From: Bacteroidota bacterium
GTDB lineage: Bacteria > Bacteroidota > Bacteroidia > B-17B0 > Aurantibacillaceae
Direction of reading: 5' to 3'
DNA length: 64,000 bases
Assembly (NCBI GenBank): GCA_963169355.1
Contig: CAUJCR010000001.1
Span: forward strand, 124,001-188,000
This document shows, piece by piece, positions 50,748-64,000 of this stretch. The position numbers and the translations under genes are program-made. Every line of letters begins with the position of its first letter. The first letter of the stretch is position 1. The notes under the pieces are model-generated. The model was not told where the DNA came from, did no database searches, and saw nothing but the letters and a program-made list of their open reading frames with translations.

Positions 50748-50851
50748 GATAAAAAAATTAGGCTATAAAGTTAATAGAATTTAGCGAATTTTCACGGCTT
50801 ATTTATGCTAAAATAAGTGCTATCAAATTATATAAAGCTATTTTTTGTTTC

Positions 50852-51061
50852 TTTTGTTTCTTTTGCTTCTAGGCAAAAGAAAGTAAGAACTTTTTTACTC
50901 TCATAACTTTTCTTTGCGTCTCCAAAGAAAAGTTACAAAAGAAAAGAGCCCACAAAAGCCAACAGAAAGTTTCATTTGTCGCACCTGCCTGCGCTTGCAA
51001 GCCATGAAACTTTCAGTTCGCACCTTTCGTGGACGTCCACGCACTCAAAAGCCTGTTTGTA
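50852..51061 (+). repeat. Long interspersed repeat A, copy 1
   Basis: 210 bp, matching 53121-53330 over the same length with few substitutions. It is a chain of perfect hairpins. Arms of 12 bp lie at 50905-50916 and 50923-50934, and arms of 11 bp at 50965-50975 and 51004-51014. A 12-bp palindrome GTGGACGTCCAC is at 51029-51040. Confidence 0.85.
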
Positions 51062-51108
51062 TGTTTGTTGTATGTTTTTTTCATCAAACTATTCAGATTA
51101 GCGCCATG

Positions 51109-51337
51109 GCATTTTAAAATGTTGCGTAAAAATCGAGTGGTATCAAAAGCGAGGGCAGGTGTGTAGATTCTTTGGGCTGTTCGCGAAGCGCTTTCAAAGA
51201 ATCAGCTTGATACTACGATGATTTTAGCAAGATTTTAAGGAGCCTTGATTTTTTTTGTAACTTTTTGTATCAAGACAAAAAGTTTTATAAAAAGCCTTGA
51301 ACTTTTGTTTCTTTTGTTTCAAGGCAAAAGAAAGTAA
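51109..51337 (+). repeat. Long interspersed repeat B, copy 1
   Basis: 229 bp, closely matching 54361-54587. Internal stems are GATTCTTTG/CAAAGAATC (51166-51174 with 51195-51203) and AACTTTTTGT/ACAAAAAGTT (51259-51268 with 51275-51284). higA ends 25 bp further on. Confidence 0.85.
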
Positions 51338-51361
51338 GAACTTTTTTACTCTTCCTAACTT

Positions 51362-51718
51362 TTAGTAAGATTGAATTAACGACTCCAATGGAATATTTAA
51401 TTTTTCATGTAATTTGCGCACCATTTCTAAGGTAAGTTTGCGCTTGCGGCTAAGTATCTCGCTTACACGACCTTTATAACCAATAATATTAGCAAGGTCT
51501 TTTTGCTTATAGCCCATTTGTTCCATTCGGAATTTAATAGCTTCAATAGGGTCAGGAGCCTCGATATGATAATGCTCGTCTTCATATTTTTCAATAAGAA
51601 AACCTAAAATTTCAAGTTCATCACCTTCTTTGGTTTTCGGACGGGCATCAAAAATAACTTCCATACGTTTTAGAGCTTTTTGATACTCTTTTTCTGTTTT
51701 AATTAATTTTATATCCAT
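51362..51718 (-). CDS. higA: HigA-type XRE antitoxin
   Basis: A 118-residue protein. The C-terminal helix-turn-helix (MGYKQKDLANIIGYKGRVSEILSRKRKLTLEM) is of the XRE/HigA type. The N-terminal region contains the KEGDELEILGFLIEKYEDEH segment often seen in HigA of Bacteroidota. It follows the toxin gene by 11 bp and should repress the pair from the upstream palindrome. Confidence 0.87.
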   Translation of the reverse strand: MDIKLIKTEKEYQKALKRMEVIFDARPKTKEGDELEILGFLIEKYEDEHYHIEAPDPIEAIKFRMEQMGYKQKDLANIIGYKGRVSEILSRKRKLTLEMVRKLHEKLNIPLESLIQSY

Positions 51719-51729
51719 GACTTCAATTT

Positions 51730-52023
51730 TTAAATCTTATTTGCGTTTATCTTATCGTACTCTGCATGTGTTCCTATAAATCTAATCCACACCATTTTAT
51801 ATTTATAATTTATCCTTACTATTAACCGATAAGAGTTGCCTTTTATATTAAAAACAACCCTATTATCCGCCAAAAAACTTGCACTTGGGTAATTAACCTT
51901 TATATCCTTTGGGGTTTGCCAATCAGCCTCTATTGCCTCATCAAACCATGTTTTTAATTGCTGCTCACAATCTTCATGTTTGGTCCAAAATACCTTTAAT
52001 GTTTTTCTGGAAATTACCCTCAT
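51730..52023 (-). CDS. higB: HigB-type toxin
   Basis: A 97-residue HigB-family mRNA interferase with VFNIKGNSYRLIVRINYKYKMVWIRFIGTHAEYDKI, the beta-sheet core and C-terminal HAEYDKI end of the family. The toxin gene comes first in the operon, as is usual for higBA. It looks full length. Confidence 0.9.
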   Translation of the reverse strand: MRVISRKTLKVFWTKHEDCEQQLKTWFDEAIEADWQTPKDIKVNYPSASFLADNRVVFNIKGNSYRLIVRINYKYKMVWIRFIGTHAEYDKINANKI

Positions 52024-52038
52024 TCCATTTTCTTTCTA

Positions 52039-52085
52039 CAAATATACGAATAGTTTTTTAAATAGTTCCCAAATGGGAACTATTT
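52039..52085 (-). promoter_or_regulatory. higBA promoter and palindromic operator
   Basis: The minus strand has a -7 box TATATTTG (52039-52046), 15 bases before the higB ATG. Upstream lies a perfect palindrome with 12-bp arms (52060-52071 and 52074-52085), positioned over the -33 region. This suits binding by HigA. Confidence 0.72.
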
Positions 52086-52315
52086 TTACTCCCGCTCTCA
52101 TCTGCCTTGCAACTACTACCTTTGCGCAAGAAAACAAAAATGATATAGTACAACTTTACGATTATGGTGCAAGGATTTATGATGCTCGTATTTTACGTTA
52201 CATGAGCACCGACCCAAAACAACCAATAGAAAACAGCCCGTATCAATTTGCGGATACAACTAAAACTAAACAGGTTGCCAATAAACCAAAGAAAAAAGGC
52301 ATTGCTACAAAATAA
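52073..52315 (+). pseudogene. Short RHS-repeat core fragment with signal-like leader
   Basis: An 80-codon frame starting inside the higBA operator. After a leader-like stretch (LICLATTTFAQ) it reads YDYGARIYDARILRYMSTDPKQP. This is the RHS-repeat-associated core motif that normally sits at the end of large YD-repeat proteins. Only the core and a Lys-rich tail remain. It may be non-functional debris of a polymorphic toxin gene. Confidence 0.6.
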
Positions 52316-52360
52316 CAAAACACCAAGCTGATAAGCCTGGCGTTGGATGTTTTTTACACG

Positions 52361-52408
52361 CACGGATACCTCACTCACAATACTACGCTTCATATCCGCG
52401 CGAGCGGG
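52361..52408 (+). repeat. Repeat C, copy 1 (plus orientation)
   Basis: Begins CACGGATACC and ends TATCCGCGCGAGCGGG, with a variable middle. Its inverted counterpart lies at 53031-53079, so the two flank the lipoprotein gene. Confidence 0.8.
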
Positions 52409-52440
52409 TGATTTTAAAACAAGGAAAGAGTATTCACATA

Positions 52441-52488
52441 AATAATAAATGCCAGTTATAAACTGGCACTCACTATACATTTATTATT
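52441..52488. repeat. Nested inverted repeats
   Basis: An inner perfect stem TGCCAGTT/AACTGGCA (52450-52457 with 52461-52468) lies within 11-bp outer arms (52441-52451 and 52478-52488). No T-tract follows the inner stem. Confidence 0.6.
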
Positions 52489-52586
52489 AGTTGAAGTTAC
52501 GGCTGAAAAAGCCTAAACTCCAACTAGCGGGGGGCCCGGCGTTTTAGTTTAATTAGTGTAGTGCTATAATTGTATCCGATTAGATA

Positions 52587-53006
52587 CTAATCAAGATTTA
52601 TAAAATTTAAGCTATCAGGTACGTTCAATTTTTTTCTTAATTCTAAAAACTTCTTTTCGTTTTTTGCTGAATAATAACGTATCAAAGAGTCGTTTTTAAT
52701 TTTTACAATCATATACTTCGGTTGTTCTTTTCTCTGCTCATTTTTTACGATAATGAAATTTCTATTTAATCCAATATCTGTTGGGTTTTTAAATGCTAAT
52801 GAATAGTATCGAGTTTCCTCCGTTTTTAACGTGTCATCAGCAGAAATAATGTATTTTAAATGCCATAAACCGTAATGTTTTTCGTATTGTTCAGTACCTA
52901 AAACAAATTGACTATTTATATTCTTTTTTATAACTACATTATAAGACTTTACGGAAGTACACCTTGAAAATATAACCACTATAGAAAAATAAAAAATATA
53001 CTTCAT
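52587..53006 (-). CDS. Small lipoprotein of unknown function
   Basis: A 139-residue protein with a short leader and lipobox-like FSRCTS. A soluble domain follows with YGLWHLKYIISADDTLKTEETRYYS. No family recognised. It sits alone between inverted C repeats, beside RHS debris, and could be an orphan immunity protein, but nothing in the sequence proves it. Confidence 0.6.
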   Translation of the reverse strand: MKYIFYFSIVVIFSRCTSVKSYNVVIKKNINSQFVLGTEQYEKHYGLWHLKYIISADDTLKTEETRYYSLAFKNPTDIGLNRNFIIVKNEQRKEQPKYMIVKIKNDSLIRYYSAKNEKKFLELRKKLNVPDSLNFINLD

Positions 53007-53030
53007 GACAATTTAATTTTTTAAATCAAT

Positions 53031-53079
53031 CCCGCTCGCGCGGATATGAAGCGTGAGAAAGTGGGCTGGTATCCGTGCG
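53031..53079 (-). repeat. Repeat C, copy 2 (minus orientation)
   Basis: Reverse complement begins CGCACGGATACC and ends TATCCGCGCGAGCGGG, matching C1 at both ends but with a different centre. A conserved spacer leads from it into repeat A2. Confidence 0.8.
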
Positions 53080-53380
53080 TTTTTTTGCATTCATTTTCAG
53101 AATCTAAGTTAATGAAAAACTTTTGTTTCTTTTGCTTCAAGGTAAAAGAAAGTAAGAACTTTTTTACTCTCATAACTTTTCTTTGCTTCTCCAAAGAAAA
53201 GTTACAAAAGAAAAGAGTCCACAAAAGCCAACAGAAAGTTTCATTTGTCGCACCAGCCTGCGCTTGCAAGCCATGAAACTTTCAGTTCGCACCTTTCGTG
53301 GACGTCCACGCACTCAAAAGCCTGTTCGTAAGTTTGCACGTTTACAAAGCTTCATTCCCGAGAGAGCGAGGTATTTGAAA
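53080..53380. other. Gene-free interval: C-A spacer and repeat A2
   Basis: No credible gene. It contains the about 40-bp spacer shared with 54046-54081, then repeat A copy 2, then about 50 bp of unassigned sequence before the ParE-like gene. Confidence 0.6.
53121..53330 (+). repeat. Long interspersed repeat A, copy 2
   Basis: Nearly identical to 50852-51061, including the hairpin chain and the GTGGACGTCCAC palindrome. No B repeat follows directly; a toxin-antitoxin module occupies the next 600 bp. Confidence 0.85.
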
Positions 53381-53668
53381 TTATTTGTATTTCTTTTTTG
53401 GACTGGTTTTACATGGAAATACACGCAAGATAAAAATTATTTTTTCTTCCACACTGTAAATAATTACATACGGATATTTTTTGATGTACATTTCTCGTAC
53501 ATACTTATATTTATTAGGATAGAACAAAGGATTTGTTTGTATATCATCTACACACTTAAATACATAATCTACAAATTTATTTCCTAACTGTTCCTGTTGT
53601 TTTTCATACCATTTTTTAGCCTTCTCTATATCTAAAATGGCTCTGTTCGTAATAACAAGCTGTTTCAT
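53381..53668 (-). CDS. RelE/ParE-superfamily toxin
   Basis: A 95-residue protein with RAILDIEKAKKWYEKQQEQLGNKFVDYVFKCVDDIQTNPLFYPNKYKYVREMYIKKYPYVIIYSV, continuous with the plasmid-stabilisation/ParE fold. It overlaps the antitoxin stop by one base. Its target (gyrase or mRNA) is not determined. It appears intact. Confidence 0.85.
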   Translation of the reverse strand: MKQLVITNRAILDIEKAKKWYEKQQEQLGNKFVDYVFKCVDDIQTNPLFYPNKYKYVREMYIKKYPYVIIYSVEEKIIFILRVFPCKTSPKKKYK

Positions 53669-53913
53669 TACTTTTTCATTTTTTTATAAATAATGTTTTT
53701 GGCTTGTTCTACAGTATAATATTTTAATTTACCCGATTTATGTTCTGCTAATGTCTTATTTAGTTTGTGTTTTTGTTCTGATGTTAACATACTGCTCTCA
53801 TCTTCACTTTGTAAAACTTCTTTCAACATGGCATAAATTGAACGTAAAATAGTTTCATTTTCTACATTATTTAATTGCTTCTTTATAGTTGTTTTTAATG
53901 CTGTTGCTGTCAT
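53668..53913 (-). CDS. Antitoxin partner of the RelE/ParE toxin
   Basis: An 81-residue helical protein with an N-terminal helix-rich domain (ETILRSIYAMLKEVL) and a Lys-rich tail (HKSGKLKYYTVEQAKNIIYKKMKK). This pattern is common to Bacteroidota antitoxins paired with ParE-like toxins. The C-terminal AE(H)KSGK and YTxEQ segments resemble known members. A promoter box lies 24 bases upstream. Confidence 0.78.
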   Translation of the reverse strand: MTATALKTTIKKQLNNVENETILRSIYAMLKEVLQSEDESSMLTSEQKHKLNKTLAEHKSGKLKYYTVEQAKNIIYKKMKK

Positions 53914-53937
53914 TTAATAGAATGTTTATGTGATAGT

Positions 53938-53945
53938 CAAAGTTA
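53938..53945 (-). promoter_or_regulatory. -7 promoter element of the antitoxin-toxin pair
   Basis: The minus strand reads TAACTTTG (TAnnTTTG), 24 bases upstream of the ATG at 53913. Confidence 0.6.
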
Positions 53946-54000
53946 CTCATTTTATTGTTTAACTAAAAACATGAAGGTTTAAACCCTAGTTTTTTCTTCA

Positions 54001-54045
54001 CTCGCGCAGATATGAAGCGTGAGCTAATTGGCTGGTATCCGTGCG
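54001..54045 (-). repeat. Repeat C, copy 3 (minus orientation)
   Basis: Reverse complement begins CGCACGGATACC and ends CTGCGCGAG. With C4 it bounds a 654-bp unit containing A3 and B2. Confidence 0.75.
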
Positions 54046-54081
54046 TTTTTATACTCATTTTCAAATTCTAAATTAATGAAA

Positions 54082-54320
54082 TTTTTTGTTTCTTTTGTTT
54101 CAAGGCAAAAGAAAGTAAGAGAATTTCTTTTACGATACTTTTTTCGGAAAAAGTATCCAAAACCGTTTTATTTTTCGGAAGGATATTTTTGTTTTCTACG
54201 CACATATCTCCGCCAAACAAAACCGCTGATTCAAAAATCCCACGAAGCGCTCGTGCCCGCCCTTCGATTTTCTCACAGCTATATCTGCGAAAAATAAAAG
54301 TCCACGCACTCAAAAGCCTG
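54082..54320 (+). repeat. Divergent repeat A, copy 3
   Basis: Its ends match repeat A (TTTCAAGGCAAAAGAAAGTA at the start, CCACGCACTCAAAAGCCTG at the end). The interior is different sequence yet again has a perfect stem, GATACTTTTT/AAAAAGTATC (54134-54143 with 54148-54157). Confidence 0.65.
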
Positions 54321-54360
54321 TGCGTGGGTTACACGCTATGCTATTCCGGTTAGCACAAGG

Positions 54361-54587
54361 GCATTTTAAAATGTTGCGTAAAAATCGAGTGGAATCAAAG
54401 GCGAGGGCAGGTGTGAAGATTCTTTGGGCTGTTCGCGAAGCGCTTTCAAAGAATCAGCTTGATACCACGATGATTTTAGCAAGATTTTAAGGAGCCTTGA
54501 TTTTTTTGTAACTTTTTGTATCAAGACAAAAAGTTTTATAAAAAACTTGAACTTTTGTTTTTGTTGCTTCTAGGCAAAAGAAAGTAA
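54361..54587 (+). repeat. Long interspersed repeat B, copy 2
   Basis: Nearly identical to 51109-51337, including both internal stems. Confidence 0.85.
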
Positions 54588-54604
54588 AATAATTTATATA
54601 CAAG

Positions 54605-54654
54605 GCACGGATACCTCACTCACAACACTACGCTTCATATCCGCGCGAGCGGGG
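54605..54654 (+). repeat. Repeat C, copy 4 (plus orientation)
   Basis: Begins GCACGGATACCTCACTCACA and ends CCGCGCGAGCGGGG, very close to C1. It is followed within 15 bp by the first REP-like hairpin. Confidence 0.8.
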
Positions 54655-54668
54655 TTTTGTTTTTTATG

Positions 54669-54691
54669 CCGCAGGATTGCAAATCCAGCGG
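54669..54691. repeat. REP-like hairpin 1
   Basis: Outer stem CCGC/GCGG, an A-A mismatch, inner stem GGATT/AATCC and loop GCA, followed by AGCGGGG. Confidence 0.85.
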
Positions 54692-54862
54692 AGCGGGGGT
54701 TATTTATTGGGCGAAGCAAAGCAAGCCGATACCTTTAAAGACCCTGCTATGCTAAAACGGTTGAATGAGATTACCAACTTGCCTGATACGGATAAAGAGC
54801 ATATCCTTTACACCATCGACCATTTACTGGCTTCCGTTAAAACTAAATTAGCTTATAAATAA
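54692..54862 (+). pseudogene. C-terminal fragment of an XRE-type regulator
   Basis: The frame runs directly out of the REP tail and reads DPAMLKRLNEITNLPDTDKEHILYTIDHLLASV before stopping at 54860. This is the C-terminal helical end of XRE-family regulators of Bacteroidota. The helix-turn-helix itself is missing, replaced by the repeat. A terminator overlaps the stop codon. Confidence 0.6.
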
Positions 54863-54896
54863 AAAACCGTAGCTAACAAACTACGGTTTTTTTTTG
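54861..54896 (+). terminator. Terminator 1 of the REP array
   Basis: Stem CCGTAG/CTACGG with flanking A and T runs. The same stem recurs after the next two units with only the loop changed. Confidence 0.85.
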
Positions 54897-54905
54897 TTTT
54901 TTATG

Positions 54906-54928
54906 CCGCAGGATTGCAAATCCAGCGG
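54906..54928. repeat. REP-like hairpin 2
   Basis: Same 23 bases as hairpin 1 (inner stem GGATT/AATCC), followed by AGCGGGG. Confidence 0.85.
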
Positions 54929-54943
54929 AGCGGGGCGGATATT

Positions 54944-54966
54944 CCGCAGCATGACACATGCAGCGG
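54944..54966. repeat. REP-like hairpin 3
   Basis: Outer stem CCGC/GCGG retained; the inner stem is changed on both sides to GCATG/CATGC with loop ACA. Confidence 0.85.
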
Positions 54967-54970
54967 AGCG

Positions 54971-55228
54971 GGGAATGCTCAAAAAGCTATTAACTATTAT
55001 GATGAGCAACTTACTGGCTTAGGAGAAAAATTTAATACAGCCCTAGATAAGCATATTACGATTATCGCTAAAAACCCTTTTTATCAAATACGTTATAAGG
55101 ATTACAGAGCTTTACCTATAAAAAAATTCCCTTACACTATTGTATTTTACGTTAATGAGAATACTAAAACGGTATTTATTTCTGCTGTTTTTAACATCAA
55201 ACAAAATCCTAAAAAACTACCTAAATAA
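54971..55228 (+). pseudogene. ParE/RelE-type toxin without its N-terminus
   Basis: The frame emerges from hairpin 3 and reads AQKAINYYDEQLTGLGEKFN, then FYQIRYKDYRALPIKKFPYTIVFYV and the C-terminal ISAVFNIKQNPKK. This is the body of a ParE-family toxin, lacking the first 12-15 residues including the first strand. Upstream codons are repeat DNA. It has no obvious antitoxin. Likely inactive. Confidence 0.7.
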
Positions 55229-55259
55229 AAAAACCGCAGCTCTTAAACTACGGTTTTTG
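55229..55259 (+). terminator. Terminator 2 of the REP array
   Basis: CCGCAG/CTACGG stem (one mismatch relative to terminator 1) between A and T runs, directly after the toxin fragment stop. Confidence 0.7.
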
Positions 55260-55268
55260 CTTCGTATG

Positions 55269-55291
55269 CCGCAGCATTGCAAATGCAGCGG
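55269..55291. repeat. REP-like hairpin 4
   Basis: Outer stem CCGC/GCGG; the inner stem is GCATT/AATGC, again changed on both sides; loop GCA; AGCGGGG tail. Confidence 0.85.
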
Positions 55292-55300
55292 AGCGGGGGG

Positions 55301-55327
55301 AAACCGTAGCTATTAAACTACGGTTTT
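55301..55327 (+). terminator. Terminator 3 of the REP array
   Basis: CCGTAG/CTACGG stem as in terminator 1, placed immediately after the hairpin 4 tail with no gene fragment before it. Confidence 0.8.
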
Positions 55328-55337
55328 AATTTTTATG

Positions 55338-55360
55338 CCGCAGGATTGCAAATCAAGCGG
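55338..55360. repeat. REP-like hairpin 5
   Basis: Inner stem GGATT/AATCA has one broken pair; otherwise as hairpin 1. Confidence 0.8.
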
Positions 55361-55373
55361 AGCGGGCAGCCTG

Positions 55374-55569: not shown

Positions 55570-56418
55570 TTAGTTACCTTTAACGGTTTCAGTTACAACA
55601 TCTTTCTTCACCACGTTATAGGCCTTTACGGCATTTTTTGCATTCTTTGATAAATCGGAAGCATCAATAGTTTTATTGATTTTCTTGGTTCCAAAATCAG
55701 CTACTTTGTCGACTACTACACTTTTAACAACTGACTTTAGACCTTTTTCTTGATATTCTATACTATAATCGATGGCATCAGATATACCTTCAAACGCTTC
55801 TCCAGATTCAATTAATAATGGAGACAACTCAGCCGCAGGTGTAACAGCTGCAACGTATCCTGCATATTTTAAAGTTTTACCTACTACATTTGAACCAACG
55901 GATGCTACCTTTAAATCAGTTTTTGTAATTCTACCAATATTTGCTCCATCATTTCCACCTTCTAAACTAGCATCCCATCTCTTAAATGTCTCCCATTTTT
56001 TTAATGAGCTAAATTGCTTTGCTCTATCTGTGGCTCTTGAAACGAATTGGTCATCACTATTCTTTGGTGGATTATTTGCTGCATTTATCCAAAATGTTAC
56101 TGTTTTGATATCTTTAGCATCAACACTCCTTACTTGAGTACTTCCTCCAATCAATCCAATATACTTGCCATCGTTTGTGACGAATTTCTCAGTACCATCT
56201 AAATCAATACTCCTCATAACATCATTTTCCGCAAACGCATATGTACTATTCCATGCAAAGTGTTTAAATAACGGGTCTACAGATAAGAACCGTCCTAATG
56301 CAGGATTATAAATACGCATACCATAGTCCTGAGTACCTTGTCCTGTTCCTACGGTCTCTGGATCATTTTCTTTTCCGTTAAATCCATAACGGTAAGGATA
56401 TAAATACGGTGCTACCAA
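55570..56418 (-). CDS. Truncated RHS core protein with C-terminal tip domain
   Basis: A 282-residue protein. Residues 9-75 form the RHS-repeat-associated core (YGFNGKENDPETVG, DYGMRIYNPALGRFLSVDPL, YAFAENDVMRSIDLDG). The remaining 200 residues are a variable tip of unrecognised type, presumably the toxin part. The thousands of residues of YD repeats expected upstream are absent; the frame opens with a TTG. It may be an orphan tip or a fragment. A -7 box lies 60 bp upstream. Confidence 0.75.
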   Translation of the reverse strand: MVAPYLYPYRYGFNGKENDPETVGTGQGTQDYGMRIYNPALGRFLSVDPLFKHFAWNSTYAFAENDVMRSIDLDGTEKFVTNDGKYIGLIGGSTQVRSVDAKDIKTVTFWINAANNPPKNSDDQFVSRATDRAKQFSSLKKWETFKRWDASLEGGNDGANIGRITKTDLKVASVGSNVVGKTLKYAGYVAAVTPAAELSPLLIESGEAFEGISDAIDYSIEYQEKGLKSVVKSVVVDKVADFGTKKINKTIDASDLSKNAKNAVKAYNVVKKDVVTETVKGN

Positions 56419-56477
56419 ACATTCCCCTACCTTCTCAAACTATTACAAATACTGGGGTTTTCAAAGAACATGTAAAT

Positions 56478-56485
56478 CAAATTTA
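56478..56485 (-). promoter_or_regulatory. -7 promoter element upstream of the RHS tip gene
   Basis: The minus strand reads TAAATTTG, set in an imperfect inverted repeat (ACATGTAAAT with ATTTACAATGT). Confidence 0.45.
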
Positions 56486-56523
56486 CAATGTAAACATACA
56501 ATTTTTAATTGAGGTAAGCAAAT

Positions 56524-56549
56524 AAAAAAGCTCCAAAAATTTGGAGCTT
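56524..56549 (-). terminator. Terminator in the minus direction
   Basis: Stem AAGCTCCAAA/TTTGGAGCTT, 2-nt centre, followed on the minus strand by a run of T. It probably ends the recombinase transcripts and marks the edge of the mobile element. Confidence 0.7.
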
Positions 56550-56596
56550 AGGAGTTTTTTTATTATATTGTATGTAAACTTTTAAAACAAATTATT

Positions 56597-56821
56597 ATGA
56601 CAGTAGCACAATTAGACGCAGTTCAAAACGACCTTGAAAACAGTAGTACCGTTGCCCAAAACTTATCTGCTGAAATAGGAAAAATTCGGAACATGATGTA
56701 CGGAGTTAATTCTCAGGGGATGTTTACACCTGCACAAGTAGCACAGGAAAAAACAAAAGTAAAAACTGATATTGCTAATTTGATAATAGCATTGCAAAAC
56801 ATAAACAATCGGATTGTTTAG
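56597..56821 (+). CDS. Small helical protein of unknown function
   Basis: A 74-residue protein (TVAQLDAVQNDLENSST, later KTDIANLIIALQNINNRIV), probably a coiled-coil dimer. No family recognised. It is encoded opposite the recombinases at the element's edge. Confidence 0.5.
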   Translation: MTVAQLDAVQNDLENSSTVAQNLSAEIGKIRNMMYGVNSQGMFTPAQVAQEKTKVKTDIANLIIALQNINNRIV

Positions 56822-56831
56822 TTATTTCAAT

Positions 56832-57692
56832 TTATTTCAACGGATGCCACATATTGATTTTCTCTAACTGCTCGTTGATGTCGGTACGTTTGTATTGCTC
56901 GGTACTGCTCGGCCACTTATGACCAGCAAAGAGTTGTACGTCCTCAATACTTTCTTTTGATACATTGAGTTTATTAGCTATAACACTTTGCCGTATAGTG
57001 GTTGGGTTGAGGTTACGCTCTGGGTAGAGGTGCTTTAGCGGCTCAATCATGCTATGTATGCCGTCCACCGTTTCAGCAACACCACGTTGAGTTATGAGGA
57101 AACAATTTGTTGCTGACCTCAACAAGTTTTTTCGTGAGGTGTTGATATAGTCCAGCATTAGTTTTATTTGACTTGGTTTTAAATCAAGTGTTCTGGCTGC
57201 AAATTTCGGACTGCCTTTGATGTAGATTGTACCAGCATCCAAATCAATATCGTTTAACGTTAACCTACAAAGCTCGGAGCAAGCTAAGGCTTGGTAGATG
57301 AGCAATGATATAATAACCTTGTTCCGCAGTTCCAGATTAAAAAAGCGGTTTTCTCTGGTCATTAGCTGTTCTAATTCATTTGGACTAAAGAGGTCTTGCA
57401 ACTGTATTGGTTTCTTTTTTCTCCTGAGCTTAAAGTTTCTGCAAGGGTGGTCTTGGCGTTGGCCTGTTTCCAGTAGATAATCGTAGTAACGTTTGATGGC
57501 AGATAGTATCGGGCTTATCTGTGTGGCTTCGGTCTTGCTTTTTCTCAGGCTGTTTATGTACTCCGTAATATCTGCATAGTTTAAGGCTCTCGCATTCGGA
57601 CACTTCATTTTAAATACGTCCAGATAATATAGATAGGTTTTAGCTGTCTGACCTGTGTGGTGGCGGTAAATATATTGTTCAAGTGTTTCCAT
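56832..57692 (-). CDS. Tyrosine recombinase-like protein with degenerate active site
   Basis: A 286-residue XerC/D-type protein with a SAM-like N-terminal domain and a catalytic fold. The region-I Arg is Ala137 (ALACSEL in place of GLRxSEL). The HxLRH box reads TTIRQ (231-235), keeping Arg234 but losing both His. His258 and nucleophile Tyr267 remain (GHKW to EQYK). Strand cleavage on its own is doubtful. It starts 1 bp after the intact recombinase gene, so the two are likely partners. Confidence 0.82.
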   Translation of the reverse strand: METLEQYIYRHHTGQTAKTYLYYLDVFKMKCPNARALNYADITEYINSLRKSKTEATQISPILSAIKRYYDYLLETGQRQDHPCRNFKLRRKKKPIQLQDLFSPNELEQLMTRENRFFNLELRNKVIISLLIYQALACSELCRLTLNDIDLDAGTIYIKGSPKFAARTLDLKPSQIKLMLDYINTSRKNLLRSATNCFLITQRGVAETVDGIHSMIEPLKHLYPERNLNPTTIRQSVIANKLNVSKESIEDVQLFAGHKWPSSTEQYKRTDINEQLEKINMWHPLK

Positions 57693-57693
57693 A

Positions 57694-58620
57694 TTATCGG
57701 CTATGTGTTAAGAGTTGTTTCATTTTTCTTCGTCTGGCATAAACATGTACGGTGTCAATCTCACTATGCCCCATAAATTCCCGTACAAACTCTATGGTAG
57801 CTTTGTTATCCAATAGATGTACTGCGATACTATGACGTAAACAATGGAGGGTAATATCTTTATTAATGAGTTCTGTGTTTTGTGTTTTCTCAATCAGTTC
57901 TTTAAGTCGGGCATTGATGTGGTCGCCTTTCATCCGTTGGCCTTTATTGTTCACAAAAAATGCTTCGGTTCGTTGGTGCTGTGTCTGTTTAAAGTAAACG
58001 TGTCGCTCATTAACCAAATAGTCTTTTAAATCATTTACAAGTTTATTAGATAGAGGTATCTCTCTGCGTTTACCAAACTTTCCTTTTCTAACTATCAATA
58101 TCCCTCTGGTCAATTGTACATCAACAACATTGAGATTTTGTATTTCACTTCGCCTTGCACCGCATCCGTATGCAATAGCCAGCATCGCCTTATCCCGTTT
58201 GTTTTCACAAACGGTGTACAAGAGTTTTACCTCATCAATGCTTATGATTTGTCTTTGTTTACCTTCACTTCGGTTATGCTTAGGCAAGAGGATTTTTTTG
58301 TCAATCAAATTATTATCGAGCAGGTAATCAAAAAACAAATCTACCGCAAACATATTGCCTCCAATAGTTGAGCTGCTTAACAAACCTTCTTTTCTCATGT
58401 TGGGTCTTGTACTCAGATACTCATAATACTCAACCATATCCAACGGCTTTAACTTGTTAAGTTTTAGTTTACCTAAGTTTTCCAGATAGGCTAAAAACTC
58501 TTTCACGTTGTTCTGGTAGGTGCTTCCTGTTTGTCGGTAGCCCATTGCTTTGATTGCTTCATCAAATCCTTTTAACAGGAGTTGGTAGGTATGGGTATAT
58601 AGTTCGCCTCGTTTGGTCAT
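57694..58620 (-). CDS. Tyrosine recombinase/integrase
   Basis: A 308-residue XerD-type recombinase with an intact set: Arg156 in GARRSEI, a region Lys in RKGKFGKRREIPL, His259 and Arg262 in HCLRH, His285 in GHSEID and Tyr294 in VHVYARR. It is the probable integrase/excisionase of the element. Paired with the downstream degenerate homologue. Confidence 0.92.
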   Translation of the reverse strand: MTKRGELYTHTYQLLLKGFDEAIKAMGYRQTGSTYQNNVKEFLAYLENLGKLKLNKLKPLDMVEYYEYLSTRPNMRKEGLLSSSTIGGNMFAVDLFFDYLLDNNLIDKKILLPKHNRSEGKQRQIISIDEVKLLYTVCENKRDKAMLAIAYGCGARRSEIQNLNVVDVQLTRGILIVRKGKFGKRREIPLSNKLVNDLKDYLVNERHVYFKQTQHQRTEAFFVNNKGQRMKGDHINARLKELIEKTQNTELINKDITLHCLRHSIAVHLLDNKATIEFVREFMGHSEIDTVHVYARRRKMKQLLTHSR

Positions 58621-58729
58621 AGTGTTTTTTCTTTTGCTTTATATATGTACTTCTGGGAAACTGGGACGCTACGGGTCAAACCTATACTGGTAGTGAGTTC
58701 CAGCGTCCCAAAGTGCTTTTATTTACTCC

Positions 58730-61024
58730 TTAATCCTGTATTTGGTTTATCTGGCTAAGTAGTCCATCCTTTACCTTCTGTCTAACCTTTTCCATGTCAT
58801 CCCAGTAGCTTATCTGGTATTTATATCCTTTGTTTGCAGAGCCTTCGGCTATCTGGATATATTCCAAGTGTTTTAAGTCCTGTATGTATCTATCCACTTG
58901 GGAGCGGCTAAGGTTAAAAGCTTGCCTTACTTCTCTGGTGCTAAAATGATATTTACCAGAGCCGCTTTGTTTCTTGATGTAGCTTTTTAATTGCTCAAAA
59001 AACTGACGTAGGCTGCTATCGAGTTCATCAATCTTCCACATGATAGCATCAAACAATATTTCACAGGCCAGCTTTAAATCTTCTTTGGTTGATATTAAAC
59101 GGCCTTGCTCATCTTTGTTGCGTTGGTACTGATGCAACAAGGTGATTTGCTTTACAAAGTCTTGGTAATGGTTGTTTAACCGCCTCAACATCTTTGCCTC
59201 AACGGGTAGTTGTAATTTATCTGCATAACGGTTAACTACCTCATAAGGCTTCAATGTACGGATGCAGTTTTGTAATAGCTCTTTAGCTTGTTTGCTTGCT
59301 AAGGTATCCAATAGACCAGCGGTTTGTTTATTCTGGTACAGGATAATTCTTTTTGTCTGGTCTTCGCTTTCATTTACACCGAGTATAATGGAGCGGCTCA
59401 GATTATCAAAATAAATTTCTGCATGAGTTGTCGCTACAAGGCTTGCAAACTTTGCATTAACCCGTTTAACGGTTGATACCAATTGCCCCGATTTGTTTTT
59501 ATAAGTGGTGGAGCTACTCACAAAGCCAGCCGATTGCATTTCCCTAAAAGCAAACATTGCTTCTTCATCCAGCCCATCAATGTCCTGTATCAATACCAGT
59601 TTATTAATCAGGTCTTCATTTTTGTAGTGATATAATGACTTGCTGGTGATTCTGGTCATGTTGAGCAAATCCTCTGGCGGCATAAGATTAGCAATACCAT
59701 TCACCAAATGTGTTTTACCGCTTCCGCTTGTTCCTTGTATCAATCCATGCAAAGGATTAAGCATTTTGTAAGTGGATGCAATAACAAAGACCATTTTACG
59801 GTTGTTTTCTTCGCCAACGATACCGCTGGTTTCAATTAGCTTATCTATGCGTTGGATTAGATTTGCTTCGCTTAAAAACTCAATCGATTCTTTTTCTTTC
59901 TCTGGGGGTAAAAGATTTTGAGGCTTTTGTTTTGTCCCGTGTTCGGCTTCCAGTTGTTCATCTCGATATGCTTCCAAGAGGTCGGTGAGCTTTAATAGCT
60001 CTGCTTCAATTTCGCTCTGGTCAATCCCTTCACCTTCACTAATGGACTTAGCAAAGTTCACCAACTGTTGTCTGTCATATAAGTCGGGCTTTGCACGGTG
60101 TTTTCTTTTGGTGTTGAGTTCTTCAAAGTGTATGGTTGCTTTTAGGTTCCCTAAGTCGGTTGATAGATTACCCAACACATAGTATGTTCCTGTGCTTGCT
60201 TCATAGCTTAATTTACCTTCTGTAATTCGATTTAAACACGCTTCTGTCTGTTCAGTCGTAATTATCTCAGCCTGTCCTTTGGATTCATTTAAAAGCTGTT
60301 GTAAGCCCTCTAATCCGTAATTCACCCACATGTCATTTAGACTATGGTCTTCGGGTAAATTAATCCTTTTGATATTTACAGAGTGTAAAAAGTGCTTCAA
60401 TACTTCTGCTGAGGTTTCCGCTGGTCTATTTACCTCTGGTATTGCGATAATTTCATTAAGGTGTTTTAATGACATTACAGCCTCTAATGTTTCATCCGAC
60501 ATTCTACCTTCATTTAAAGCGATAACAGCATCCCTGTTGCCAAGTATTCGACTTTCAAGTATGGTTGCCGCATCCAATAAACTATCAGTTATATATAACT
60601 TCTCAGTTAACGGGTGTGGGTAGTTAGGATATATTCCTTCCTCATTGAGATACTGAGGCGTATGGTCTTTGGTAAAGATGCGGATTGCTCCAAAATTTAC
60701 CACCTCATTCAATTCGTTTCGGAGTGCAAAGATAATCGCCTCCTTACCAAAGCTGGTGTATGCCTTTAACTCTGGGCTTCTCACGGCTGCATTGCTTGGT
60801 ATTAAAAAACCAACACTTAGCAGCTCATCAATAAAATCCTGTTCCCTACGGTGGTGGGTTTGGCCAGAGCTAAAACATGCTCCTGTTCGTTCAATGGATA
60901 AACATTTGCTTTCGAGCCATTCTCTCGGTTCTTTAGTTTTAGCAGCCCTGATACCATTACTAAAGCTGACGTGTAGTGTTTTAAAAATCTCCTTTCTGTC
61001 TTTCATATCCATTTTTTTAGGCAT
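58730..61024 (-). CDS. Toprim-like and P-loop ATPase replication protein
   Basis: A 764-residue protein. The N-terminal part (about 20-240) resembles primase-Toprim proteins of mobile elements (FSSGQTHHRR, FALRNELNEVVNFGAI, LYITDSLLDAATIL). The usual Toprim acidic residues are not obvious (ITDSLLDA, then IAIPEVN). The central P-loop ATPase has Walker A GTSGSGKTH (431-439) and Walker B VLIQDIDG (477-484). A C-terminal winged helix (about 700-745, TREVRQAFNLSRSQVDRYI) likely binds DNA. Probable helicase/loader for the element. Its promoter is 228 bp upstream. Confidence 0.72.
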   Translation of the reverse strand: MPKKMDMKDRKEIFKTLHVSFSNGIRAAKTKEPREWLESKCLSIERTGACFSSGQTHHRREQDFIDELLSVGFLIPSNAAVRSPELKAYTSFGKEAIIFALRNELNEVVNFGAIRIFTKDHTPQYLNEEGIYPNYPHPLTEKLYITDSLLDAATILESRILGNRDAVIALNEGRMSDETLEAVMSLKHLNEIIAIPEVNRPAETSAEVLKHFLHSVNIKRINLPEDHSLNDMWVNYGLEGLQQLLNESKGQAEIITTEQTEACLNRITEGKLSYEASTGTYYVLGNLSTDLGNLKATIHFEELNTKRKHRAKPDLYDRQQLVNFAKSISEGEGIDQSEIEAELLKLTDLLEAYRDEQLEAEHGTKQKPQNLLPPEKEKESIEFLSEANLIQRIDKLIETSGIVGEENNRKMVFVIASTYKMLNPLHGLIQGTSGSGKTHLVNGIANLMPPEDLLNMTRITSKSLYHYKNEDLINKLVLIQDIDGLDEEAMFAFREMQSAGFVSSSTTYKNKSGQLVSTVKRVNAKFASLVATTHAEIYFDNLSRSIILGVNESEDQTKRIILYQNKQTAGLLDTLASKQAKELLQNCIRTLKPYEVVNRYADKLQLPVEAKMLRRLNNHYQDFVKQITLLHQYQRNKDEQGRLISTKEDLKLACEILFDAIMWKIDELDSSLRQFFEQLKSYIKKQSGSGKYHFSTREVRQAFNLSRSQVDRYIQDLKHLEYIQIAEGSANKGYKYQISYWDDMEKVRQKVKDGLLSQINQIQD

Positions 61025-61339
61025 AGTTATCTGAGCTTCGATTTTTACATCGAAAAAATTGACCGATTAGAAAAAATAAGGCAAGTTGATAACTGGACTT
61101 AGCCCAACATTTTCCTACGAGGGGTCTGGCCTCGCTGACATAACTATTTTATTTGAATTAGAGCCGAAAACTGGCATTTTCACACCGATTTTGGCTTAGA
61201 AAAGAGATTTTGGGTCATTTTTCGCCCATTTTCCCCGATTTTTTAGTGATGCAAAGGTACGTAATTATTTTGAATCTACCAAATTTTTCTTCAAAAATAT
61301 TTTGCCATGTCAAATATTATATGTATTCAAAGCACTTAA
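61025..61339. other. Leader region of the ATPase gene and tail of the resolvase gene
   Basis: No gene. Contains a minus-strand promoter at 61252-61283 and a small stem CGAGG/CCTCG near 61120 within the long leader. Confidence 0.5.
61252..61283 (-). promoter_or_regulatory. Promoter of the Toprim-like/ATPase gene
   Basis: On the minus strand a -33 TTTG (61280-61283) and -7 TACCTTTG (61252-61259) are separated by 20 bp, matching the Bacteroidota consensus. The resulting leader is about 220 nt. Confidence 0.65.
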
Positions 61340-61909
61340 TTAAGCTGCATAAGCTCCAACGGTAACATGGCTCAGGTTTAAAGTCTTTCCGATAACTCTA
61401 TTAGATAAGCCCTCCGACTTCATTAATTTAATACGGTCTATAATGGTTGTATCTATTTGCGGCCTGCCTCCTTTCTTTTTACTTCGAGCTAAACCAGCTT
61501 TTACACGTTCACTAATACGTACTTTCTCTTGCTTTGCCAATGTTGATAAGAGAGATATAACCACGTCTTTGAATATGCCGCAAGAATCTATGTACTGTTC
61601 CGTGTATGACTTGAAGCCTACACCGTAGCTTTCCAGTTGCTCCATATACTTTATAGCTGCTCTGGTTCCTTCACGTGTCCATCTATCAAGGCTCCAAAAC
61701 AAAACAAGGTCAAACTTACGCTTGGCGGCATCGGCAAACAGCTTCTTAAAAGCTGGACGGTCGGAAGTACCACCGCTCACCTCATCCATATACTCACCTG
61801 TTACCTTATAACCCATGCGTTCGCAAAACTCACGTAATACGATTAACTGATTATCGACATCCTGACCTTTATTGGTAGTTGATACTCGGACATAAATTGC
61901 TGTTCTCAT
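61340..61909 (-). CDS. Serine recombinase (resolvase family)
   Basis: A 189-residue small serine recombinase. The nucleophile is Ser10 in YVRVSTTNKGQ. Further blocks are DEVSGGTSDRPAFKKL and the Arg-containing WSLDRWTREG. A C-terminal helix-turn-helix (KKGGRPQIDTTIIDRI, then GLSNRVIGKTLNLSHVTVGAY) completes the protein. It could resolve co-integrates or dimers of the element. Confidence 0.92.
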   Translation of the reverse strand: MRTAIYVRVSTTNKGQDVDNQLIVLREFCERMGYKVTGEYMDEVSGGTSDRPAFKKLFADAAKRKFDLVLFWSLDRWTREGTRAAIKYMEQLESYGVGFKSYTEQYIDSCGIFKDVVISLLSTLAKQEKVRISERVKAGLARSKKKGGRPQIDTTIIDRIKLMKSEGLSNRVIGKTLNLSHVTVGAYAA

Positions 61910-62006: not shown

Positions 62007-62279
62007 CTAAACAAGTGTTTTCTTACCAGCCTCATCAAACTTCTTAACCAGTATTTCAGCAAGAAAACGCAGGTACTCAACTATGCTTTTATTGTAAAAA
62101 TCCAGCTTACGAAGTGTCTGGCTAATTACTTGTTGTTCGTTGAGCGGTGCGTTATGGATTGCTTCAATAACAAAATCGGTGTCAATGAAGTGAGTTAGTC
62201 CGTTGGTGTCGGTTATCTCAAACATGGTGTAATTGATTTGTTTTTCTTGAAAGAAGTTGCTTAGATATGTTTTGCTCAT
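62007..62279 (-). CDS. Hypothetical protein of the mobile element
   Basis: A 90-residue, mostly helical protein (TDTNGLTHFIDTDFVIEAI, later YNKSIVEYLRFLAEILVKKFDE). No family recognised. It lies between the resolvase gene and the repeat-rich divergent region. Confidence 0.55.
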   Translation of the reverse strand: MSKTYLSNFFQEKQINYTMFEITDTNGLTHFIDTDFVIEAIHNAPLNEQQVISQTLRKLDFYNKSIVEYLRFLAEILVKKFDEAGKKTLV

Positions 62280-62391
62280 GGCTCTGAATGGGTTGATTTT
62301 CCTGGTATAAAGGTAAAGCCCTGGATTTGAACTTCCTACAAAAACCCTGGTTTTCCTGGGGTTTCACGGTATTGAGCTGTTAAGCTTTACA

Positions 62392-62581
62392 AAAAGTTCA
62401 TTTATGATTTTCTCTGCGTGCCTTTCAGGTGTTGAGGTTCAGAGGTTTTTCGAGTTCATTTAGGACACTATAAGCCAGCGAAGCGACCCACCCCGTGCCT
62501 TATAGTGTCCTTTTTTATCCTTAAAAATCTCTGTCCCCTATGGTATTGTTGAGGTACGTGGATTTTCATAAATGAACTTTT
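62392..62581. repeat. Large inverted repeat with 16-bp perfect arms
   Basis: AAAAGTTCATTTATGA at 62392-62407 is the exact reverse complement of 62566-62581, enclosing 158 bp that itself contains a 13-bp-arm hairpin. Confidence 0.75.
62462..62516 (+). terminator. Long-stem hairpin with 13-bp arms and T-tract
   Basis: AGGACACTATAAG (62462-62474) pairs with 62499-62511, around a 24-nt GC-rich loop, followed by T residues on the plus strand. It could be a terminator or a structured origin element. Confidence 0.6.
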
Positions 62582-62612
62582 AGATTATTTTCAGAAATCT
62601 TGTGCTTACCTA

Positions 62613-62756: not shown

Positions 62757-64000
62757 GTGAAAAAACAAAAACAGTTCAGGCGTTACATTCCCGTAAAACT
62801 TAAAGAAGCCTTAGACCAATTAAGCTATGAGCGTAAAGATGACCTTTACACTATTATAGACCTTATTTCCCGAAAGGAAATTTATTTTAAATCGGATTAC
62901 CAGAACCGACACGGGTACACCGAAATATCAAAAGCTCAGTTTAAAGAATACATTGCGAGTAGCGAACACCTGAGCAATGGGTTACAGTTCCTTATTGATA
63001 ATAAACTATTGCTGCAAAATCCATTTTACATAATTGGTGTGGAATCAAAAAAATATAAGATACCCAGAGAGTATTTAGGCAAGACCGTTCCAATTACCAT
63101 AAGAGATAAGAACATTAATAAACGCATCAGCGATAAGATTAAACGAAACAAAAAGATGAAAGCAAAAAACTTAGAATTTGCTAAGACCGAGTATTACAAA
63201 ACATTTAAGATTGATATTGAAGGAGCAAGGCAAGCGATATTAAACAAGACGGTAACTGAAATTAAAAGCCTTTGTTACCGATTAAATTTAATTTACAGCG
63301 ATAAGGATGTATTAGATATTATTGAGTGTAAGAATGATTATATAAAGACACGCTTTTGTATCATGCTACATAAAGAAGGTTATGAACTGGATAACATTAT
63401 GCACCGTTACATGATATATAATACACGTATTAACGCTATTAATGACGGTTTCCTGTTCTTTAAGCGTAACAGCACCAATGGAAGACTTGACACCAATCTG
63501 ACATCGTTACCAAGCTTTTTAAGACCGTTTTTAATTGCTTCGGAAAAGTTAATGAACATTGATATAAAGAACTCACAACCATATTTCTTATACACGCTTA
63601 TCATGCACAAGTCAGAGATTGACCAAACGGAGTTAAAAAGATATGCGGAGCTGGTAATCGGTGGAAGCTTTTACGAGTATCTGGCAGAGCAATACAAAAA
63701 ACAAACTGGTTACACCAGAGAACGACACCAGATGAAAAACATGTTGTTTAAAATCTTCTTTTCGAGAGTGAATAGCTATAAAGAACAAAAACAATTCTTT
63801 GGTGGTTTGTTCCCAACGATTATGAATCACATTAACCAGACCAATGAAGAAAAGCATAATACTTTATCTATCCAGCTTCAAACAAAAGAATCATTTACGG
63901 TGTTGGATATAATCTTGCCATTGTTAGAGAAGCAAGGCATAAGACCTTATACTATACATGATAGCTTTGTATGTAAGGAATCTGAGGCAATGACTATAAA
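62757..64000 (+). CDS. Family A-type polymerase of the transposon/virus (TV-Pol) group, 3' end cut by window
   Basis: An open frame of 414 codons runs from GTG 62757 to the edge; an in-frame TGA just upstream makes this the first possible start. Three polymerase motifs appear in order. Motif A is NIDIKNSQPYFL (Asp269). Motif B-like is RERHQMKNMLFKIFFSR (Arg321/Arg323, Lys327). Motif C is YTIHDSFV (His401-Asp402-Ser403), as in T7 RNA polymerase and Pol I relatives. There is no exonuclease domain. This fits the TV-Pol family described from mobile elements and Sputnik-like viruses, proposed to combine priming and DNA synthesis. Identification rests on motifs read by eye. Confidence 0.75.
   Translation, partial: MKKQKQFRRYIPVKLKEALDQLSYERKDDLYTIIDLISRKEIYFKSDYQNRHGYTEISKAQFKEYIASSEHLSNGLQFLIDNKLLLQNPFYIIGVESKKYKIPREYLGKTVPITIRDKNINKRISDKIKRNKKMKAKNLEFAKTEYYKTFKIDIEGARQAILNKTVTEIKSLCYRLNLIYSDKDVLDIIECKNDYIKTRFCIMLHKEGYELDNIMHRYMIYNTRINAINDGFLFFKRNSTNGRLDTNLTSLPSFLRPFLIASEKLMNIDIKNSQPYFLYTLIMHKSEIDQTELKRYAELVIGGSFYEYLAEQYKKQTGYTRERHQMKNMLFKIFFSRVNSYKEQKQFFGGLFPTIMNHINQTNEEKHNTLSIQLQTKESFTVLDIILPLLEKQGIRPYTIHDSFVCKESEAMTI

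Follow-up and report, generated by a model that had tools for sequence, protein, structure and literature searches.

The TV-Pols are transposon- and virus-encoded family A DNA polymerases described by Iyer, Abhiman and Aravind (2008; PMC2579912) and marked by an Arg, absolutely conserved, in a β-hairpin, two Asp residues and an RxxxK motif in the fingers. Their thumb consists of two antiparallel helices, and the fingers also hold an HTH and a conserved Asp. They have a 400–600-aa family A core without a nuclease, may carry an N-terminal domain, have recombinases as neighbours and count Bacteroidetes among their hosts. The same study placed a TV-Pol in Microcystis phage Ma-LMM01 and described a linkage to D5 helicases that marks a subgroup. 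The CcPol-MP/PolA-SSB primases of SCCmec-like elements are likewise family A polymerases of mobile elements, for which de novo priming together with a small protein that binds ssDNA has been shown (PMC7581432, PMC10061031). Such primases are recognized by an OB-fold partner in the same operon and a COG3378/DUF927 helicase. Besides CcPol, no TV-Pol had been biochemically tested as of the first of these papers (PMC7581432). Here we describe a TV-Pol-like protein encoded at the end of a 64,000-nucleotide stretch of a Bacteroidota genome (source genome G000, contig C1, positions 124001–188000; the window).

A predicted family A polymerase with a winged helix

The gene has a GTG start at 62757, and its frame is still open at the window end after 414 codons (62757–63998, + strand). 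Extension beyond 64 kb, which the original prediction had called for, gave the complete 471-codon gene: its stop lies 172 bases beyond the window in the flanking contig, and the full product is 471 aa long. The same prediction had named NIDIKNSQ, RERHQMK and IHDSF as polymerase motifs, and all three are at the expected places: NIDIKNSQ with Asp269, RERHQMK with Arg323xxxLys327 and TIHDSF with Asp402.

62757–64000, continuing to window-equivalent 64172, + strand: gene for the TV-Pol-like family A polymerase, 471 aa (frame, conservation, predicted fold)
62757–63134, + strand: N-terminal domain (aa 1–126), predicted initiator-like winged helix (modelled separately, pLDDT 92.6)
63483–63485, + strand: codon of Arg243, conserved Arg beside a β-hairpin (invariant in 18 members, at least 90% in 65)
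63561–63563, + strand: codon of Asp269, motif A (invariant; ends strand 265–270)
63723–63737, + strand: Arg323xxxLys327, fingers motif B (Lys327 invariant in 65 members, both residues in the closest five)
63960–63962, + strand: codon of Asp402, motif C (HDS; invariant; within the 398–407 β-turn)

Searched alone, the polymerase had no hit among PDB sequences or NCBIfam models and none above cut-off in Pfam, and PDB sequence searches with profiles also returned nothing relevant. The single match to PF00476 (DNA polymerase I) in the source genome is a different gene, on contig C12, and none of 18 members of the polymerase family matched PF00476 at E 0.1. The clade is unnamed in Pfam and NCBIfam.

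We then turned to structure. An AlphaFold2 model from an alignment of 65 members reached pLDDT 89.4 and pTM 0.86, and its best 50 Foldseek PDB rows were family A polymerases without exception (E down to 7.9e-7). VIA-align of residues about 127–441 gave Z 14.6 for apPOL over 264 residues, 14.5 for T7 DNA polymerase and 13.5 for Klenow. In the model, Asp269 closes the motif A strand (265–270) and Asp402 sits in the 398–407 β-turn, as in family A palms; Arg243 falls between strands 235–237 and 244–246, which form a β-hairpin, and there are long helices at 154–175 and 210–229, candidates for the two thumb helices of a TV-Pol. The top BFVD rows were an unnamed protein, A0A516L5C2 (TM 0.78–0.90), and a marine-phage 'putative DNA polymerase I'; virophage replication proteins ranked lower, that of Zamilon virophage among them with E 2.7e-3 and an rmsd of 4.9 over 251 columns; the rows also included a protein from a Qinghai Lake virophage. 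The family A assignment of the original prediction hinged on such a palm match and survives. Judged by its predicted fold, the protein is a real but divergent DNA polymerase I relative, with a winged helix at the N-terminus followed by thumb, palm and fingers, and no exonuclease domain.

The separate model of residues 1–126 has winged-helix topology. Its best VIA rows were 4pql (Z 8.0) and ORC2 winged helices (7.4–7.7), along with the 'initiator'/'Rep-DNA complex' entries 4pt7 (Z 7.7) and 5kbj (Z 7.4); Foldseek gave nothing below E 0.04 for this domain. Initiators thus head the match list, at Z of 8 or less, near the noise level at which common arrangements score. The likeness to the plasmid Rep initiators (4pql, 4pt7, 5kbj) lies in the winged-helix arrangement; those proteins have no polymerase domain.

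Conservation and distribution of the polymerase family

Relatives were found in 12 other genomes among the 395 Bacteroidota searched (best 47% identical). Searches with tblastn added six phage records of 595–735 kb and a 35-kb Hymenobacter plasmid, and a profile-derived pattern picked out 130 relative-coding stretches in IMG/VR, of which 80 were retained. Degenerate scans from the single polymerase recovered no relatives, but the genome search and the A1 profile did, and HMM searches recover them cleanly. The family is thus spread over phages, megaphages, one plasmid and integrated elements. The records L034–L036, L038 and L039, phage genomes of 595–735 kb that each encode a relative, are unannotated. 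One homologue, of 686 aa (L026, 9023–11080), has a C-terminal extension; it is probably the one member of the set in which GIY-YIG/NUMOD homing-endonuclease domains were matched.

The 65 aligned members come from Bacteroidota chromosomes and phages and include relatives of 20–46% identity. D269, S273, Q274, P275, Y306, K327, F348, E378 and D402 are invariant in 65/65, and R243, N272, H401 and S403 are at least 90% conserved; at least one megaphage relative has Lys in place of the Arg of RxxxK. Since these residues are conserved across 65 sequences, the motifs are not a product of chance.

A resolvase or tyrosine recombinase lies within about 10 kb of the polymerase at 12/17 cellular loci. At several, the order is integrase, accessory gene, small HTH protein and polymerase, and some carry restriction-modification genes. 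Phage members are accompanied by head genes, also in small phage contigs. In the window, the following lie between the polymerase and the recombinase module described below.

62007–62279, − strand: 90-aa ORF matching phrog_6004, a family without assigned function (E 3.7e-12)
61340–61909, − strand: serine resolvase (Pfam Resolvase, 1.2e-32)

The resolvase has a relative, 54–65% identical, near the polymerase on the Hymenobacter plasmid. We considered the 90-aa ORF as a conserved partner and rejected it, as relatives carry no equivalent of it next to the polymerase.

Comparison with TV-Pols and other family A polymerases

Our TV-Pol yardstick consisted of five rows, Ma-LMM01 MAP_030 together with relatives on Polaromonas and Calothrix plasmids. 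The MAP_030 gene adjoins transposase genes, and we infer that it encodes the Ma-LMM01 TV-Pol of PMC2579912 and that the yardstick likewise represents that family. Against this yardstick hhalign gave E 3.7e-4 with a probability of 36%, pairing the hairpin Arg, motif A, the RxxxK region and motif C in order, whereas the polymerase profile reached E 0.11 against Bacteroidota Pol I. The profile comparison is suggestive of a polymerase nearer to the TV-Pol yardstick than to Pol I, through a weak sequence link.

In its features the protein resembles a TV-Pol: it has the catalytic Asp pair, the hairpin Arg and RxxxK, lacks a nuclease domain, carries an extra N-terminal domain as a subset of TV-Pols do, and occurs in a Bacteroidetes host in a mobile context with resolvase and integrase neighbours. 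It differs in the winged helix that forms its N-terminus, in a motif A of the form D-I-x-N-S-Q-P and in its surroundings, where no D5-like helicase fusion or linkage was seen in a scan of six window proteins or in the 25 Pfam families listed for neighbours. On these features and the suggestive yardstick match we call it 'TV-Pol-like'. Of the TV-Pol assignment originally proposed, the features and the mobile context stood, and membership by sequence is only suggestive.

Like the CcPol-MP/PolA-SSB primases, the protein is a family A polymerase of mobile elements encoded near recombinases. CcPol, however, has a sequence close to that of Pol I, whereas the protein here is unmatched by PF00476, and no same-strand ORF of 80 aa or more lies directly downstream of the gene as a PolA-SSB-type partner. 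With DNA polymerase I and T7 DNA polymerase it shares the predicted thumb-palm-fingers fold, the catalytic Asp pair and RxxxK, but it has no exonuclease domains, is about 11–14% identical to them and has a separate winged helix.

A nested palindrome upstream of the polymerase gene

62392–62581, no strand assigned: nested inverted repeat, candidate origin or operator (fold z −5.9; recurs upstream in G057 and L040)

The outer arms of this repeat are perfect and 16 nt long (62392–62407/62566–62581), and they enclose an inner hairpin (62465–62508). The strand 62380–62600 folds 5.9 sd below its shuffles. The same plan is found upstream of the polymerase in genome G057 (47% identical polymerase) and in the phage contig L040 (43% identical). 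There the outer arms are 164–172 nt apart with the inner hairpin between them, and the palindrome lies 172–279 nt 5′ of the start codon. Arm sequences vary among the three and pairing is kept. The nested architecture was seen in 0/60 shuffles of each sequence. In an automatic alignment of the three, 16 pairs changed on both sides, but the inner hairpin of G000 was placed wrongly, and we therefore relied on the architecture test. L040 encodes a head protease and head proteins, which makes it a phage, so that palindrome and polymerase are common to one phage and two chromosomal elements.

The palindrome is a trait of the closest clade only. It is lacking upstream of the polymerase in ten other relatives, and we discarded the idea that structured upstream DNA marks the whole family (median z −2.3 upstream versus −2.0 downstream). 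The core pattern occurred only in G000 when searched across the phylum, and DNA similarity revealed no copies on plasmids.

We favour, as somewhat the better bet, the reading that a stand-alone family A polymerase of the TV-Pol kind and the palindrome upstream of it form a portable initiator-polymerase cassette. The winged helix would bind the nested palindrome or an origin like it; there the polymerase domain would start and extend DNA, so that the conserved folded segment may be the start site of the polymerase. Palindrome and gene would then work as a portable replication cassette, which here would have become part of a larger element; the tyrosine recombinases of that element seem to target RHS genes for insertion. 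The polymerase is probably a replication enzyme that binds origins and is also carried by phages, and we infer that it binds an origin, initiates and replicates its carrier. We entertain only tentatively the fuller version, in which a Rep-like winged helix and a self-priming TV-Pol are combined in one protein that uses the nested palindrome in cis, the cassette moving among phages, plasmids and RHS-inserting elements.

A family A fold does not imply priming, and inverted repeats beside genes are often regulatory. The protein might accordingly be a primer-dependent polymerase that repairs DNA or fills gaps when DNA is excised and integrated, and the palindrome a promoter/operator or a terminator pair; no consistent helicase neighbour was found among the listed neighbour families, which fits such a role. 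We consider it rather unlikely in view of the initiator-like N-terminal domain, the presence of the polymerase both in integrated elements and next to the head genes of small phage contigs, and the constant 164–172-nt spacing of the nested repeat, which is unusual for an operator.

The clade is compact and widespread in Bacteroidota phages and 595–735-kb megaphages. In three cases it comes with a candidate origin, so that a single protein and a 200-bp DNA would suffice to test self-priming directly. If the polymerase primes, it would add a further route for starting replication of mobile DNA to DnaG, AEP primases, piPolB and CcPol-MP.

The neighbouring ATPase-recombinase module is RHS-associated

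The recombinases and the Toprim/ATPase protein on which the original prediction drew are present on the − strand at 56832–61909, the resolvase listed above among them.

58730–61024, − strand: DnaG_N/Toprim-remnant–AAA ATPase–wHTH protein (its zinc finger and the catalytic residues of its Toprim are lost)
57694–58620, − strand: tyrosine recombinase TyrA (Phage_integrase, 1.2e-32)
56832–57692, − strand: tyrosine recombinase TyrB (Phage_integrase, 4.1e-13)
55570–56418, − strand: orphan RHS C-terminal tip, core YRYGFNGKENDPE..., adjoining TyrB
window-equivalent 66675–67775: second RHS piece

G057 carries the same ATPase-TyrA-TyrB module and the polymerase (45–51% identical over the main matches); RHS-core direct repeats (198 bp, 70%) flank them and delimit about 29 kb. 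A search within the genus for an empty site did not reveal the ends of the window element; the flanks are hypervariable and neighbours differ.

Traced through Bacteroidota, the module lies, at most of the loci inspected, within RHS polymorphic-toxin loci, in the order full RHS gene, small gene, HTH, ATPase, TyrA, TyrB and orphan RHS tip. A strict RHS-core motif follows the module on the same strand at 21/47 loci and on the opposite strand at 0/47. At some loci the ATPase protein comes with an intact CHC2-Toprim primase, at others with no primase, and at about 22 loci in addition to the window with a dead Toprim (zinc finger, Glu and DxD lost). The 'Toprim-like ATPase' of the original prediction has thus lost its Toprim catalytic residues. 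Nor are the ATPase and the recombinases, which that prediction grouped with the polymerase in one self-replicating element, its fixed partners: the RHS-associated module normally lacks the polymerase, and only two such elements were found to hold it. The dead-Toprim lineage is mostly from Flavobacterium (L208–L226, L228, L252, L266), and in G057 and G202 the gene of the ATPase protein is split into two frames at the former DxD site.

The polymerase might be the dedicated replicase of the ATPase-TyrA-TyrB element, replacing its dead DnaG-type primase: in G000 and G057 it lies within the element, beside an ATPase protein without zinc finger, Toprim Glu and DxD. We tested this on 75 ATPase loci and 49 genomes. 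About 20 other dead-Toprim elements have no polymerase within 10 kb, and the polymerase is present in 2/20 dead-Toprim genomes versus 4/29 with an intact primase. Compensation for a dead primase as a general rule was rejected on this lack of enrichment, and because only two such elements were found to hold the polymerase, we regard the dedicated replicase as very unlikely. The rarity of the polymerase in this class of element and the truncation of the nearby RHS pieces would also suit a phage or plasmid leftover, idle in the window element. We give this very little credence, as the 471-codon frame is intact and all catalytic residues and the palindrome are kept.

Displacement of RHS C-terminal tips is known as such. 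The literature searched contained no account of an ATPase-TyrA-TyrB module within genes for RHS toxins. G343 has two copies of module and core, 99.3% identical over 6098 bp, that end in different tips; G088 repeats a 6749-bp unit whose terminal repeats, about 100 bp long, lie in the RHS core. The observations fit an element that enters the RHS core, bringing its own tip and orphaning the old one, and they suggest that 55570–61024 of the window, L197–L206 and L208–L282 represent a mobile element swapping RHS C-terminal tips. Near-identical tandem copies (99.3–99.9%) occur in L198 (5348–18730), L199 (3373–20000) and L201 (1540–15137), suggesting recent repeated integration of the RHS-associated element. 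Positions 50851–55366 of the window hold many short interspersed repeats of about 60–250 bp, up to 97% identical, which recur at many places in this genome and in others of the genus.
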